Shown: one piece after another, positions 723-5,492 of the stretch
Layout: each line of letters opens with the position of its first letter
Position numbering within the stretch: position 1 is the first letter of the stretch
DNA from: an uncultured Planctomycetales bacterium
GTDB taxonomy: Bacteria; Planctomycetota; Planctomycetia; Isosphaerales; Isosphaeraceae
NCBI GenBank assembly: GCA_903926465.1
Contig: CAIYJE010000012.1
Span: 1 to 32,695, forward strand
Length of the DNA: 32,695 nt
Direction of reading: 5' to 3'
Made by a program: the position numbers and the translations under genes
The notes under the pieces: generated by a model
The model's database searches: none
Told to the model about the DNA's origin: nothing
What the model saw: only the letters and a program-made list of their open reading frames with translations

Positions 723-752
723 TTGACCGGGCTGCTTTCTTGGCGATACACT
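723..752 (+). promoter_or_regulatory. Predicted sigma70-type promoter of hipBST
   Basis: TTGACC (723-728) is followed, after 18 nt, by TACACT (747-752). These match 5 of 6 and 4 of 6 consensus bases. The predicted transcription start near 759 falls at the left edge of the second operator. The promoter is therefore enclosed by the two palindromes, an arrangement suited to repression or looping by a dimeric or tetrameric HipB. Confidence 0.55.
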
Positions 753-782: not shown

Positions 783-1052
783 ATGGCACCTTGTGTTGGT
801 CTGAGCATGGCATCTCCTGAACCTGGTTCCGGCAGCATTGGTGAGTTTGTGCGTCGGCGGCGGAAGGCGAACCGGCTGAGCCAGCGTGACCTGGGCGAGC
901 TGGCCGGGGTGGGAACCCGGTTCGTGTCGGAACTGGAACGCGGCAAGCCCACGCTCAGGATGGACGCCGTGAACAAGGTTCTCCTGGTTTTTGGGAAAGT
1001 GCTCAGCTATACCGAGGCACCAAGGGAGGTGGATCTTGAAGCGGGCACGTAA
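783..1052 (+). CDS. hipB: HipB-like XRE-family antitoxin/repressor
   Basis: This 89-aa protein carries a helix-turn-helix of the XRE/Cro type: IGEFVRRRRKANRLSQRDLGELAGVGTRFVSELERGKP, with the usual LSQ..LA...G....S.LERG pattern. It closes with the short beta region typical of HipB. It most likely dimerises, binds the two palindromes in its own promoter and represses the operon. The frame is open from 723, but the predicted transcription start is near 759, so I chose the ATG at 783; an ATG at 807 is also possible, and neither has a strong ribosome binding site. Its last 17 bases overlap hipS. In the E. coli HipBST system HipB is mainly the DNA-binding component while HipS neutralises the toxin, and the same division of labour is likely here. 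Confidence 0.8.
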   Translation: MAPCVGLSMASPEPGSGSIGEFVRRRRKANRLSQRDLGELAGVGTRFVSELERGKPTLRMDAVNKVLLVFGKVLSYTEAPREVDLEAGT

Positions 1053-1374
1053 GGGACGAGTGAGCCTTTCTGGCCAACCCGCGGGAACGCTTGAAGAAGC
1101 GGGGGACCAGATTCGCTTCACGTACCTGCCGGAATGGCTGGACCGGCCCGATGCCGTACCGGTTTCGCTCACGCTACCGCTCCGGAGTGAGCCGTACATC
1201 TCACATGGGCTGCATCCGTTCTTTGAGAACCTGCTTCCCGAAGGCTGGTTGCTGGAAGTGGCCTCGAAAACGCTGAAAATCTCCAGAGACGATCCCTTTG
1301 GTTTATTGCTGGCGACCTGTGGAGATTGCGTGGGGGCTGTGGAGATTGAGCCTCAGGATCCCGAACAGCCATGA
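1036..1374 (+). CDS. hipS: HipS-like small antitoxin (HipA N-terminal subdomain protein)
   Basis: This 112-aa protein corresponds to the N-terminal subdomain of HipA kinases, here a free-standing gene. Family features are the beta-rich start (GRVSLSGQPAGTL), the core FFENLLPEGW around residues 62-71, and the DPFGLLLATCGDCVGAVEI block near 86-104. I chose the TTG start at 1036 because a GGAGG lies at 1025-1029 with a 6-nt spacer; the upstream ATG at 991 would overlap hipB by far more. The gene overlaps hipB by 17 nt and hipT by ATGA, indicating tight translational coupling. In E. coli HipBST, HipS is the antitoxin and, as I recall, uses a tryptophan to plug the HipT active site. Trp71 in the PEGW motif is a candidate for that residue, but this is inference. 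Confidence 0.78.
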   Translation: MKRARKGRVSLSGQPAGTLEEAGDQIRFTYLPEWLDRPDAVPVSLTLPLRSEPYISHGLHPFFENLLPEGWLLEVASKTLKISRDDPFGLLLATCGDCVGAVEIEPQDPEQP

Positions 1375-2309
1375 CAGCCTGCATGGTCTGCTTATGCCCC
1401 ACCACTGACACCAGCGAATACCATGTTGCCTGCCTTCAGGCATTGTATGGGGCGAAATCTGTTCCCTCATTCCGTTACGACGCTGGCGAACTGTATCGTG
1501 TTGCCGCGCAAATGGCGGGCAAGATGTCGATCTCTGGAATTCAGGAAAAGGTCTCGCTCAGGCTCTCGGCCGATCGTTCCAGGTTGGAGGTTGCCGCGAC
1601 GAGGGGCCGGTACATTCTCAAGCCGGAACCCGCACGTTACTCCGCGCTTCCGCAAAATGAGCATCTGAGCATGAGGCTGGCCACACTGGTGGGAATTGAG
1701 ATTCCACCATGCGGGTTACTTCGACTGAAAGATGGAACAATTACTTATGTGATCAAGCGATTTGATCGGACTGATCGCGGTGAGAAATGGCCCGTCGAGG
1801 ATTTCTGTCAGCTGGCAGAGAAACCCGTTCGTGACAAGTACAATGGTTCGGCCGAGCTGTGTGTTCGGTTGCTGAGAAAGTATGCAAGTGAGCCGGCGAT
1901 CGAGGTGGGGAAGTTTTACAGGTTACTGCTCTTCGGCTGGTGGATTTCCAATGGAGATATGCATCTCAAGAACTTCTCACTGCTGACCGAGCCAGACGGC
2001 TTGCGACGATTGTCGCCTGTTTATGACCTGGTGAGCACTCGACTTGTCATTCCCAACGATATCACCATGGCCCTGACGTTGGGGGGCCGAAATAAACGGC
2101 TCCTTCGAAAGGATTGGCTAGCATTTGGCCATTATTGCGGCCTTCCAGAGAGGCTCGTGAACCGGATGATTGCGGATCAGGTGAAGATCTTGCCGCGCGC
2201 TTCGGAAATGATCCAGATTTCGTACTTGCCTGACTCGATGAAACAACAATTCATCGACATCATTTCAGGAAATACGGCTGTCCTGGTGGAATCTGGTGCC
2301 GAATCGTGA
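1371..2309 (+). CDS. hipT: HipT-like serine/threonine kinase toxin
   Basis: This 312-aa protein is the kinase part of a HipA-family toxin, lacking the N-terminal subdomain that HipS supplies separately. Visible motifs are the Gly-rich loop KMSISGIQEK (residues 51-60; Ser53 and Ser55 match the SIS autophosphorylation motif of E. coli HipT), the ATP-binding lysine in YILKP (Lys84), FDR (131-133), the catalytic loop NGDMHLKN (194-201, Asp196 and Asn201) and the metal-binding Asp219 in SPVYD. All expected kinase residues are present, so the toxin looks active. The known E. coli HipT phosphorylates tryptophanyl-tRNA synthetase; the target here cannot be told from sequence. The N-terminus is cysteine-rich (CMVCLC) and may be a short metal-binding or structural extension. 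The start overlaps the hipS stop (ATGA). Confidence 0.85.
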   Translation: MTACMVCLCPTTDTSEYHVACLQALYGAKSVPSFRYDAGELYRVAAQMAGKMSISGIQEKVSLRLSADRSRLEVAATRGRYILKPEPARYSALPQNEHLSMRLATLVGIEIPPCGLLRLKDGTITYVIKRFDRTDRGEKWPVEDFCQLAEKPVRDKYNGSAELCVRLLRKYASEPAIEVGKFYRLLLFGWWISNGDMHLKNFSLLTEPDGLRRLSPVYDLVSTRLVIPNDITMALTLGGRNKRLLRKDWLAFGHYCGLPERLVNRMIADQVKILPRASEMIQISYLPDSMKQQFIDIISGNTAVLVESGAES

Positions 2310-2338: not shown

Positions 2339-2375
2339 AAAAAAGGCAGGCACTCCGCGTGGGAGTGCCTGCCTT
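2339..2375 (-). terminator. Rho-independent terminator of the 2410-3105 gene
   Basis: A 14-bp perfect stem (2343-2356 pairs with 2362-2375, 5-nt loop) is followed on the minus strand by a run of six T residues (A-run at 2339-2344 on the plus strand). It lies just beyond the stop of the minus-strand gene. On the plus strand it lacks a T-run, but the same stem may slow transcription leaving hipT. Confidence 0.85.
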
Positions 2376-2409: not shown

Positions 2410-3105
2410 TCAGATCTTGGCTTCGTCGGCTGGCTTCACGTCTTCGACCTTGGGAGCTTCTTCAACCGGCTTCACTTCTTCGACCTTGGGGGCGTCGGCG
2501 GGCTTGGCCTCTTCAGGCTTGGGAGCGTCTTCGACCTTGGGGGCCTCGGTTGGCGTGGGGGTCACGGGCGGAACCGGTGTTTTCCCCTTGCGAACGTCGG
2601 CAATCAGGGCCGCAAAGATCCGGTTGCGGTCGTCGTACCAGCTTTTGAGTCCCTTGGAAGGGGGGGTGATCCGGATATTCTTTTCGGCCACCACGCCCTC
2701 GGCCTGCCCGTAGCCAGTAAACCAGGCACCAAAAACTTCCGGGCTAACACCGACTTCCGGTGATTCCTTGGTGATGGCTTTCAGCTTGGCCCGATCATCG
2801 GCCCGGCCGGTGATCAGAATGTCAAGGATGGGCGGCGGATCAATGGTGCTATCCACCAGGCCTGCATCTTGGGCCGCCACAATGGCCTCGGCCACGGCGC
2901 GGCGTGCCGCGTCAATCTTAGCCTGAACTTCAGGCGGGATGGGCTTAGGCTCAGCCGGGGCGACCACGGCCTCGGCCGGCTTCTGGTCCGGGCTGGCTGC
3001 CGGAACTGCTTCAGCCTTCTTCTCATCCTGAGCGAACAGCCGGGCAGATCCGCTCAACCCCAGCAACAGGGACGCGGCAACTGCCAGAGACGAAAATCGG
3101 CGCAC
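2410..3105 (-). CDS. Secreted hypothetical protein with repetitive Pro/Glu/Lys tail
   Basis: I do not recognise a family. The 231-aa protein starts with a clear signal peptide (MRRFSSLAVAASLLLGLSGSA, cleavage probably near ARLFAQ). It then has an Ala/Pro/Glu-rich linker, a central region of about 110 residues that looks folded (VQAKIDAARRAVAEAI, GLKSWYDDRNRIFAALIADVRKG), and a C-terminal tail of imperfect repeats of the type APKVEDxKPxEE. The tail is also visible as DNA direct repeats with the core CTTCGACCTTGGG at 2443, 2478 and 2529. The start is GTG, with AAGGAG 7 nt upstream. It probably acts in the periplasm or at the cell surface. The repeat tail may expand or contract by slippage. Confidence 0.7.
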   Translation of the reverse strand: MRRFSSLAVAASLLLGLSGSARLFAQDEKKAEAVPAASPDQKPAEAVVAPAEPKPIPPEVQAKIDAARRAVAEAIVAAQDAGLVDSTIDPPPILDILITGRADDRAKLKAITKESPEVGVSPEVFGAWFTGYGQAEGVVAEKNIRITPPSKGLKSWYDDRNRIFAALIADVRKGKTPVPPVTPTPTEAPKVEDAPKPEEAKPADAPKVEEVKPVEEAPKVEDVKPADEAKI

Positions 3106-3623: not shown

Positions 3624-5492
3624 ATGGCGAAGTTCCCGAAGACCGCACGGAAGAACAGTCCGGGGCTTGAGAATCTGGAGAAACGCGAGTTACTCACGGG
3701 GCACGGGCTCCACCTTGCCAAGGGGAACATCCCCATCACCCCCGCTGATTTCGTGCGCATCGTGCGTTATTACACCACGGGCATTCCCGCAAGCGATCGG
3801 CGGATCGTCCAGAAGCTTGGTGATGGAAGCACCGTGGCCGTGACCCTGTATGGGAATGGCACCCTGAAAGATAGTTCGGGTCAGGTGACTACCATCGACC
3901 CCACCACCGGGTCTGTGAATCTGGTCTTCAACGGAACCGATAATCAGACACGGATCATTGCCAATGTCTGGAATGCTGACGGCCGACCTTCCAACAAAAT
4001 GTTGCCGCTGACCGGAATTCGCGATGCGAACAGCCGGGTGGGAAGTCAGACCGGTACGGGCGTGGACCCGGTGTGGGCGATTGTCATGCCCAACTTCAAC
4101 CTGGTGAACGGCTCGTATGTCAACCTGATGGGAGGCATCATCACGGTGCAACTCCAGCAGATTGAGGCGAACACGGTGATGTACCTCAAAGAGGGGGTCG
4201 CACCAGCAACCACCACGCAAACGGTTTCCACCATCACCTCGGGTGGAGCCTCGGTGGGTGGTGTCACCAACGTGACGGCCGTGAATACCACGGTCACCAG
4301 AGACACCGTTCCCCCGGGTGTGGATTTTCAGGTTCAGCGCGTGGTGGCAGGCCCCCTTGGGACCCCGGCACTGGGTGACCCGGCCCTGTTCACCGTGGAT
4401 ACCACCACCGGCCAGCTCATCCGGTTGCGGGTGAACACGGTAACCGGCAATGGTAAGACGGGGATCATTGACCCAACCTTCACGCCGATCACTCTGCCGG
4501 CGCTGGGAACCACGCGACCGTCGTTGGGATTAGCCGCCAACGGCACGGAACGGGTGGTTTTGGTTGGTATTGGATCAACCGTGTATGCCTATGATGCCCA
4601 GACTGGTGCCGCCGCCGGTCAGTTCACGGTGCCCCAGTTGACGAGCGTGGACGGGATTGGTTCCAACGGTACCGGTACCTTGTTCACACAGACCGGTGGC
4701 AACGGCCTCTCGGTTGATGTGAAAGCGAGCCTGGCCAGTGGGACCGCGGTTGGCTTGCTGGTGGTGCCCCAGCGTGAGTTTGTGTTCAACGGCGGCGTGA
4801 CCGGGGTCGCTGGATCGAGTGTGCTTTACGTGGATGGTGCGGCTCACTTTGACACCGCGCAGCCCAACCTGTTCCAGTTTGGTGCCGCCGGCTATTCGCT
4901 GAGTGGCGCGGAGTCGAGCCGGACCGCCATTGCCGGCCCGCTTTCACCGTACATCAACGCCGGTGCCAATGGTCTGAACACCAGCCCATTCACGGGCTCT
5001 GGCAGCCTGGATACCAGGCTGGCCCGCTTGCTTCCCGCAGGAGCACTGGGCAGCACCGATACCATTGAGCTGTTCACCCCCTCAACCGAGGCGGTTGCCG
5101 GTACCATCACGCTGCAAACCAGCGATGCCCTTTACGGGCTGAGCGAGTCTTACCACCCGGAACTGGCGGGTACCTCGAACATTCCCGCCCAGACCGGTGC
5201 GGCGGTCGTGAATATTCAAGGCAATACACGGCGGTTCCTGGGCCTGGATGTTCAAGGGCTGATCTTCAACACCACGGGTACGGTGAACATGGTGGGAGCA
5301 AAACATGCTGCCGATAGCACGTTTATTGGAAACCCATTGAACCATGCCGATATTCCGAACCGGCAGAACGTGCAACTGCTTTCCAACCAGCGCGGGCTCA
5401 ATGGTCGCGTGACCCGAAACGGTGTGAAGATTGTCAGAAATCTCTCGCCCATCGGGCCGCTGTCCATGCCCGTGGTCGCGCCTGGCTCCTGA
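3624..5492 (+). CDS. Planctomycete surface protein with LExLExRxLL N-terminal motif
   Basis: This 622-aa protein begins with a basic stretch and the motif GLENLEKRELLTG (residues 14-26), matching the LExLExRxLL signature found near the N-terminus of many planctomycete extracellular proteins in place of a classical signal peptide. The rest is rich in Thr, Gly, Val and Asn and beta-strand patterns, with recurrent segments such as FTVDTTTGQLIRLRVN and VYAYDAQTGAAAGQFTVPQL that recall beta-propeller or DUF4394-like blades. There are very few cysteines and no enzyme motif. It is likely an exported, possibly cell-envelope, structural or adhesive protein. The gene is flanked by a terminator at 5529-5571 and appears monocistronic. 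Export by this motif is established only by family association, and the beta-propeller idea is inference. Confidence 0.75.
   Translation: MAKFPKTARKNSPGLENLEKRELLTGHGLHLAKGNIPITPADFVRIVRYYTTGIPASDRRIVQKLGDGSTVAVTLYGNGTLKDSSGQVTTIDPTTGSVNLVFNGTDNQTRIIANVWNADGRPSNKMLPLTGIRDANSRVGSQTGTGVDPVWAIVMPNFNLVNGSYVNLMGGIITVQLQQIEANTVMYLKEGVAPATTTQTVSTITSGGASVGGVTNVTAVNTTVTRDTVPPGVDFQVQRVVAGPLGTPALGDPALFTVDTTTGQLIRLRVNTVTGNGKTGIIDPTFTPITLPALGTTRPSLGLAANGTERVVLVGIGSTVYAYDAQTGAAAGQFTVPQLTSVDGIGSNGTGTLFTQTGGNGLSVDVKASLASGTAVGLLVVPQREFVFNGGVTGVAGSSVLYVDGAAHFDTAQPNLFQFGAAGYSLSGAESSRTAIAGPLSPYINAGANGLNTSPFTGSGSLDTRLARLLPAGALGSTDTIELFTPSTEAVAGTITLQTSDALYGLSESYHPELAGTSNIPAQTGAAVVNIQGNTRRFLGLDVQGLIFNTTGTVNMVGAKHAADSTFIGNPLNHADIPNRQNVQLLSNQRGLNGRVTRNGVKIVRNLSPIGPLSMPVVAPGS

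Follow-up and report, generated by a model that had tools for sequence, protein, structure and literature searches.

The window, by which we mean the whole analysed stretch of 32,695 nucleotides from an uncultured Planctomycetales bacterium, makes up one entire contig (C12). On its plus strand, three adjacent genes follow one another in the order hipB-hipS-hipT, as is characteristic of HipBST systems. The genes and the elements around them are as follows:

699 to 712, no strand assigned: upstream palindrome TTCCCGATCGGGAA with perfect 7-bp arms, proposed HipB operator O2
723 to 752, plus strand: sigma-70-like promoter TTGACC-N18-TACACT, between the two palindromes
760 to 773, no strand assigned: repeat occurrence of the palindrome TTCCCGATCGGGAA, 61 bp from O2 and close to where transcription is expected to start, proposed HipB operator O1
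783 to 1052, plus strand: hipB, open from ATG 783 with ATG 807 as the likelier start, XRE/HTH DNA-binding protein
1036 to 1374, plus strand: hipS, TTG start, free HipA N-subdomain-1 and proposed antitoxin, with Glu69 ahead of Trp71
1371 to 2309, plus strand: hipT, ATG start, HipA-type Ser/Thr kinase core and proposed toxin
1371 to 1493, plus strand: N-terminal mini-domain of HipT (residues 1-41), C4-x2-C7...H18-x2-C21, proposed metal-binding knuckle
1527 to 1535, plus strand: SIS motif of the Gly-rich loop (Ser53, Ile54, Ser55), proposed autophosphorylation sites, low model confidence
2343 to 2375, minus strand: terminator-like hairpin of 14 pairs with a T tail, between hipT and the convergent gene 2410-3105

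The three overlapping genes lie where the sequence-only reading had placed them, except that hipB may begin at 807 instead of 783. This in-frame ATG fits the relatives better, leaving 10 residues ahead of the IG-F motif as compared to 8 in the HipB of one relative (L004). The TTG start of hipS is located inside hipB, giving an overlap of 17 bp, and aligns with the ATG of hipS from the same relative, while the ATG of hipT overlaps the end of hipS by 4 bp (ATGA). Between 600 and 2500, four terminator-like sites were found against 2.1 expected. The planctomycete-like character ascribed to the genome is indirectly supported by 49 PSCyt2 matches, 48 of them above the cut-off; among 14 control genomes none had a match above the cut-off and one had a match below it.

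Searches of family models and PDB sequences with all three proteins returned the HipB, HipS and HipT families. HipB matches HTH_31/HTH_3 of Pfam and, with 72.4 bits slightly above the cut-off of 71.65, couple_hipB of NCBIfam (TIGR03070), in agreement with its earlier assignment to the XRE family; its best solved match is Legionella HipB (HipB(Lp), 1e-6). HipS is recognised by Couple_hipA of Pfam (8.5e-31) and the couple_hipA domain of NCBIfam (2.6e-32), and its PDB matches are HipS(Lp) (1e-17), H. influenzae HI_0666 (5e-13) and E. coli HipS (5e-10). The predicted HipS structure (pLDDT 92.3) matches HipS proteins and HipA N-subdomains with TM-scores of 0.66-0.82 (21 hits, E ≤ 0.001). Thus, the claim that HipS is a free HipA N-subdomain stands in both family model and fold. 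HipT, 312 amino acids in length, matches HipA_C of Pfam (1.5e-48) and, in the PDB, HipT(Lp) (3e-51) followed by E. coli HipT (5e-23). Its predicted structure (pLDDT 94.6) aligns over the whole chain with the HipT structures 7wcf, 7vkc and 7ab3-5 at query-normalised TM-scores of 0.85-0.92, and reaches 0.78 with the shorter HipS-bound chains. HipT is therefore a HipA kinase core, as proposed, that does without N-subdomain-1 and keeps its catalytic residues. The match to HipBST proteins in sequence and predicted structure is far above chance. Since the family models concur with the sequence matches in the PDB and with the predicted folds, the locus is, judging from these sources, a HipBST tripartite toxin-antitoxin operon.

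To place the operon among its relatives, we used a set of 129 loci comprising the window, 80 loci from named genomes, 4 from plasmids, 11 from viral contigs and 33 from further genomes of the same phylum; four copies from the window's own genome were excluded. In 112 of these loci hipS is a separate gene upstream of hipT, whereas 10 encode a fused HipA and 7 gave no HipS. Among the 110 distinct split loci, an HTH gene (hipB) lies directly upstream in 106, and in the remaining four hipS starts at most 53 bases from a contig end. HipBST is favoured over HipBA, in which HipA is a single fused protein, by the gene order, by the matching family models and predicted folds, and by these relatives; in the window, hipS and hipT are separate genes.

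The residues that the sequence-only reading had singled out in HipT are all in place, namely Ser53-Ile54-Ser55, Lys84, Asp196, Asn201 and Asp219, and so is R130-F-D132-R133. K84, D196, N201 and D219 are invariant across 63 aligned HipTs, and all four are present in 108 of the 110 distinct split loci, the other two having an X or a gap there. The Gly-rich loop is more variable: it reads SIS in 19 of the 110 loci, SLS in 6, SVS in one and mostly T/A/S-x-T in the rest. As its pLDDT in our HipT model is below 50, the state of this loop is not predicted. According to the accessible part of the Legionella study, serine-to-alanine exchange in the loop abolished toxicity of E. coli HipT but not of Legionella HipT (PMC10653801).

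A closer inspection of HipS localises Trp71 to the codon at 1246-1248, and it aligns, as claimed, with the Trp of E. coli HipS (Trp65 in the accessible part of the eLife paper, PMC10627512). Glu69 is kept in all 110 distinct split loci and the Trp in 95. Within our sample, biased as it is towards the window, having the Trp is thus the common state and no peculiarity of E. coli. The available text of the same paper describes the Trp as necessary in E. coli (PMC10627512). Because Legionella HipS neutralises its toxin with an Ile at this position, as stated in the accessible part of PMC10653801, a role of Trp71 in the window can only be presumed. For Legionella HipT, six residues have been published at which mutation weakened or abolished the binding of HipS. 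Five of them are identical in the aligned window HipT (D132, R133, E143, K156 and K200), and the column of Legionella R154 is occupied by V153.

Next to the solved systems, the window is nearest by score to the Legionella type. HipT scores 177.5 bits with Legionella HipT versus 85 with E. coli HipT, and a profile of the window and its relatives 296 versus 147 bits. The earlier call of an E. coli-type HipBST rather than HipBA is hence upheld for HipBST, but not for the E. coli type. We speak of a Legionella-type branch because of these scores and because Legionella-type HipBST is described, in the part of the report available, as occurring widely across distant taxa and particularly in the FCB group (PMC10653801). 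Legionella pneumophila HipBST (Lpg2368-70; accessible parts of PMC10653801 and PMC9325769) shares the gene order with overlaps and provides the best solved matches for HipB, HipS and HipT. It differs from the window in its loop (SVQ instead of SIS), in the Ile in place of Trp71, and in a degenerate form of the N-terminal C-x2-C...H-x2-C motif that is intact in the window. E. coli O127:H6 HipBST, in the accessible parts of PMC10627512 and PMC6581861, has the three-gene order and the SIS loop in common with the window, overlaps hipB and hipS by 16 nt (17 bp in the window), and carries a Glu-Gly-Trp in HipS that aligns with that of the window. Its sequence similarity is far lower than that of the Legionella system, its HipT has 335 amino acids with an insertion absent from the window, and its mini-domain lacks the full C-x2-C...H-x2-C. 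In sequence, then, the window joins the Legionella-type lineage to features of the E. coli type, the SIS loop and the HipS Trp.

HipBST-like operons on Bacteroidota plasmids and genomes (e.g. L008-L011 and most of L012-L091) resemble the window in their HTH-HipS-HipT order, in carrying the C-x2-C...H-x2-C motif and the HipS Trp in nearly all cases, and in having CCC-N4-GGG-type operators in many. Unlike the window, their loop is often T/A-x-T or S-x-T, and their operators have TATA...TATA flanks and spacings of mostly 40-42 bp. HipBA of E. coli and Shewanella and the fused HipA proteins of the same phylum (e.g. L121-L128) share the kinase core and the N-subdomain fold, but form one fused protein, match more weakly, and their profile match begins past the mini-domain. 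The window's own genome encodes a second HipA_C protein, a HipH/YjjJ kinase on another contig (C22; 1303-2613 of locus L002), with 436 amino acids and 428.5 bits against the YjjJ cut-off of 401; its 3,026-base locus gave no hit with the HipS profile.

The N-terminal cysteines of HipT (CMVCLC), which had been called unusual, turned out to be the family norm. They begin the motif C4-x2-C7-x10-H18-x2-C21, which, allowing H or C at position 18, is complete by column in 91 of the 110 split loci including the window, and in 88 under a stricter spacing pattern. All four ligand positions are at least 90% conserved in the 63 aligned HipTs. In a profile alignment, E. coli and Legionella HipT extend over the mini-domain with the first cysteine alone retained. 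Since the motif is kept in 91 loci and degenerate in both solved HipTs, a putative metal site was likely lost in these two proteins. In our model, two short strands are followed by a helix from residue 19 (pLDDT 92-97 over residues 1-40), an order that we take to be the one expected of a treble clef. Going further, one might picture a treble-clef-like module that binds zinc, is an ancestral trait of most HipBST and was lost in the two studied systems, with metal loss or cysteine oxidation as a signal altering HipS binding or target choice; we hold this idea to be speculative and rather doubtful, although, if true, HipBST would be a kinase switch gated by metal or redox. The main texts of the freely accessible HipBST and Hip papers searched contain no statement on zinc in HipT, the single mention of zinc being a reference title. 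Speaking against a metal switch, the mini-domain is dispensable in places, because some HipTs without the segment or its ligands still keep the HipS Trp (L053, L066, L084, L108 and L110, of which L066 is broken and L053 maybe mis-started). Mini-domain and HipS Trp occur both in 90 of the 110 loci, neither in 14, and mixed in 5 and 1. Shared ancestry explains this correlation, which leaves 2 supported independent pairs.

The operon is sporadic and, judging from the genomes compared, rare in the window's own family. Among 58 other relatives, three match at E ≤ 0.001 and two of these over the full length, one of another family with 52% identity (G048) and one of the same family with 35% (G009). 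A survey of 392 genomes of the phylum, among them the own genome, gave 31 with a match at E ≤ 1e-20. The other genomes of this survey contributed 29 loci, 16 of which are split. We built a HipT tree of 115 rows without the Legionella proteins; 108 rows are HipTs from split loci, one is E. coli HipT and six are fused HipA proteins. The window falls into a six-row set (SH-aLRT 99), the other five rows being four genomes from its own phylum and a MAG with the label Deltaproteobacteria. This set adjoins a large, mostly Bacteroidota set. The branch of E. coli HipT is very long and uncertain in position; it lies outside a 93-row set that contains the window (support 83). At least two other deep HipBST sets include genomes of the same phylum, one with an SIQ/SVQ loop and one with an SIS loop and no HipS Trp, each with viral contigs; in none of the loci of these sets (L005, L107, L109 and L111-L119) does the weight matrix described below detect an operator site. 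One HipBST operon placed among the Bacteroidota rows (L089) comes from a contig labelled as the archaeon Methanimicrococcus, which suggests inter-domain transfer or a mislabelled contig. Eleven IMG/VR contigs carry a Hip kinase relative (L092-L102), nine of them split and HipBST-type (seven distinct) and two fused, and weak matches occur in 3 of 50,697 phage records. An anti-phage family was considered and dismissed, the PADLOC matches being weak and partial.

Upstream of hipB, the exact 14-bp palindrome occurs twice, and these are its only copies in the whole 6.89-Mb genome. The promoter between them is weak on its own (one found versus 0.6 expected in shuffles). For 106 hipB genes, the 200-bp upstream stretches contain 157 matches in total to the related class [AT]CC[CT]N4[AG]GG[AT], compared with one match inside hipT over equal lengths and an average of 2.07 (maximum 7) in 100 shuffles, with at least one site in 71 and at least two in 51 of the 106; the pattern was picked after viewing these upstream stretches, and the counts are descriptive and not a test. 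A weight matrix built from the same sites detects CCC-N4-GGG-type sites in 79 of the 106 and none in 27, among which L012 has two by the looser pattern. By this matrix, adjacent sites are spaced by 31, 40-42, 61, 71-74, 79-81 or 123 bp. The 143 adjacent spacings give a resultant of 0.90 at 10.2-10.4 bp and 0.89 at 10.0 and 10.5 bp, and the 13 distinct values 0.72 at 10.2 bp, so that the sites appear to lie mostly about whole helical turns apart; the period is poorly fixed because 121 of the 143 spacings are 40-42 bp, and relatedness also inflates the figure. Legionella too has evenly spaced inverted repeats upstream of hipB, reported in the accessible part of PMC10653801 as 18-nt sites with 53-bp gaps; the resulting spacing of 71 bp, against 61 bp in the window, agrees with the series of the relatives.

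The recognition-helix segment of the window HipB is GVGTRFVSEL. An Arg at the fifth place of this segment (GVGxR) and the operator motif occur both in 79 of the 106 loci and neither in 21, with Arg alone in 4 and the motif alone in 2. With relatedness allowed for, the link is suggestive only and not significant (5 supported independent pairs, agreement in 2.9 on average, median p of 0.25 in a sign test). Some HipBs with Asn at this place (L016, L025) have, by eye, another inverted repeat upstream, TTACAT-N8-ATGTAA, and some with Cys (L068, L082) a half-site related to it. The HipBST system as such is already known and the window operon is ordinary in kind; new here are, at the level of DNA sequence, the paired palindromes flanking a candidate promoter and the candidate operator code shared among relatives.

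From the work on E. coli and Legionella we infer, by analogy, kinase activity, toxicity, neutralisation and autoregulation for the window operon. HipS, the detached N-subdomain of HipA, would cover the nucleotide cleft of HipT, with Glu69 and Trp71 placed beside the Gly-rich loop to keep it out, and autophosphorylation at Ser53/Ser55 may tune the activity of HipT and its binding to HipS. HipB would act as repressor and not as the main antitoxin, its dimers sitting on the two identical palindromes on either side of the promoter, at a distance of 61 bp from each other, and HipT would bridge HipB and HipS in an autoregulated operon. The precedent for the HipT target is the tRNA-synthetase class.

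An E. coli-type HipBST targeting TrpS would suit the SIS loop and Trp71 of HipS, which match the E. coli protein as given in the accessible part of PMC10627512, and a trpS gene is present in the genome. We nevertheless consider this reading unlikely in view of the twofold higher score of HipT with the Legionella chains, the best solved match of HipB in Legionella and the distant, unsure place of E. coli HipT in the tree; moreover, neither TrpS nor GltX rescued cells from Legionella HipT in the available part of that study (PMC10653801). Still less probable is a silent or domesticated remnant that has lost its toxin function: sporadic distribution in the family, the contig end and the nearby repeat would be compatible with it, whereas intact catalytic residues, the retention of most interface residues and a pair of perfect, mutually identical palindromes argue against it. 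Least of all do we expect a split form of hipBA, with HipS and HipT, by homology the two halves of HipA, jointly acting as HipA and HipB still serving as the antitoxin. Separate hipS and hipT genes are the rule (112 of 129 loci), the overlapping intact frames speak against decay, and the window HipB contains no Trp, reportedly the hydrophobic C-terminal HipB residue proposed as the HipA inhibitor. Such an inhibitory residue is missing in HipBST according to the accessible part of PMC10627512.

Overall, the locus is best explained as a tripartite toxin-antitoxin operon of HipBST type, located on the chromosome and belonging to the same branch as the Legionella-type systems, with a probability of roughly 80%. 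The HipBST structures solved are those of the E. coli and Legionella systems, apart from a single HipS of H. influenzae, and the window belongs to a larger branch whose toxin has a conserved C-x2-C...H-x2-C module and many of whose proposed operators obey one simple code. Both this code and the putative metal site would be useful, testable additions to the known system. The window may therefore serve as a compact test case for HipT release, with metal or redox sensing as an option, and for the essential target of Legionella-type HipT kinases, left unsettled in the accessible part of the Legionella study (PMC10653801).

With respect to the surroundings, positions 1-144 of the window hold a repeat, perhaps an insertion sequence, that breaks the assembly and ends 555 bp ahead of the first palindrome. 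Seven more near-complete copies (98-100% identity), each at most 5 bases from a contig end of the own genome, and shorter pieces were found. A mobile-element origin was discarded, as the window is a whole contig with what we take to be ordinary chromosomal genes from about 6 kb onward. ORF 20-667 (ATG 179 likelier) lacks a match in Pfam as well as in the 58 other relatives; its other matches in the own genome are confined to the repeat part. In three relatives (G011, G026, G004), the homologue of gene 2410-3105 has a conserved downstream neighbour, presumably diadenylate-cyclase-like, that is 66-74% identical among them. In the window, hipBST occupies the place of this neighbour, for which the own genome has one match elsewhere (41% identical). 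This fits an insertion or replacement by hipBST, with no clean empty site in evidence because the contig starts in the repeat. Genes 2410-3105 and 3624-5492 have no Pfam match; their homologues occur in 33 and 30 of the 58 other relatives, respectively, all of the same family, and lie near each other in four of the five stretches examined.
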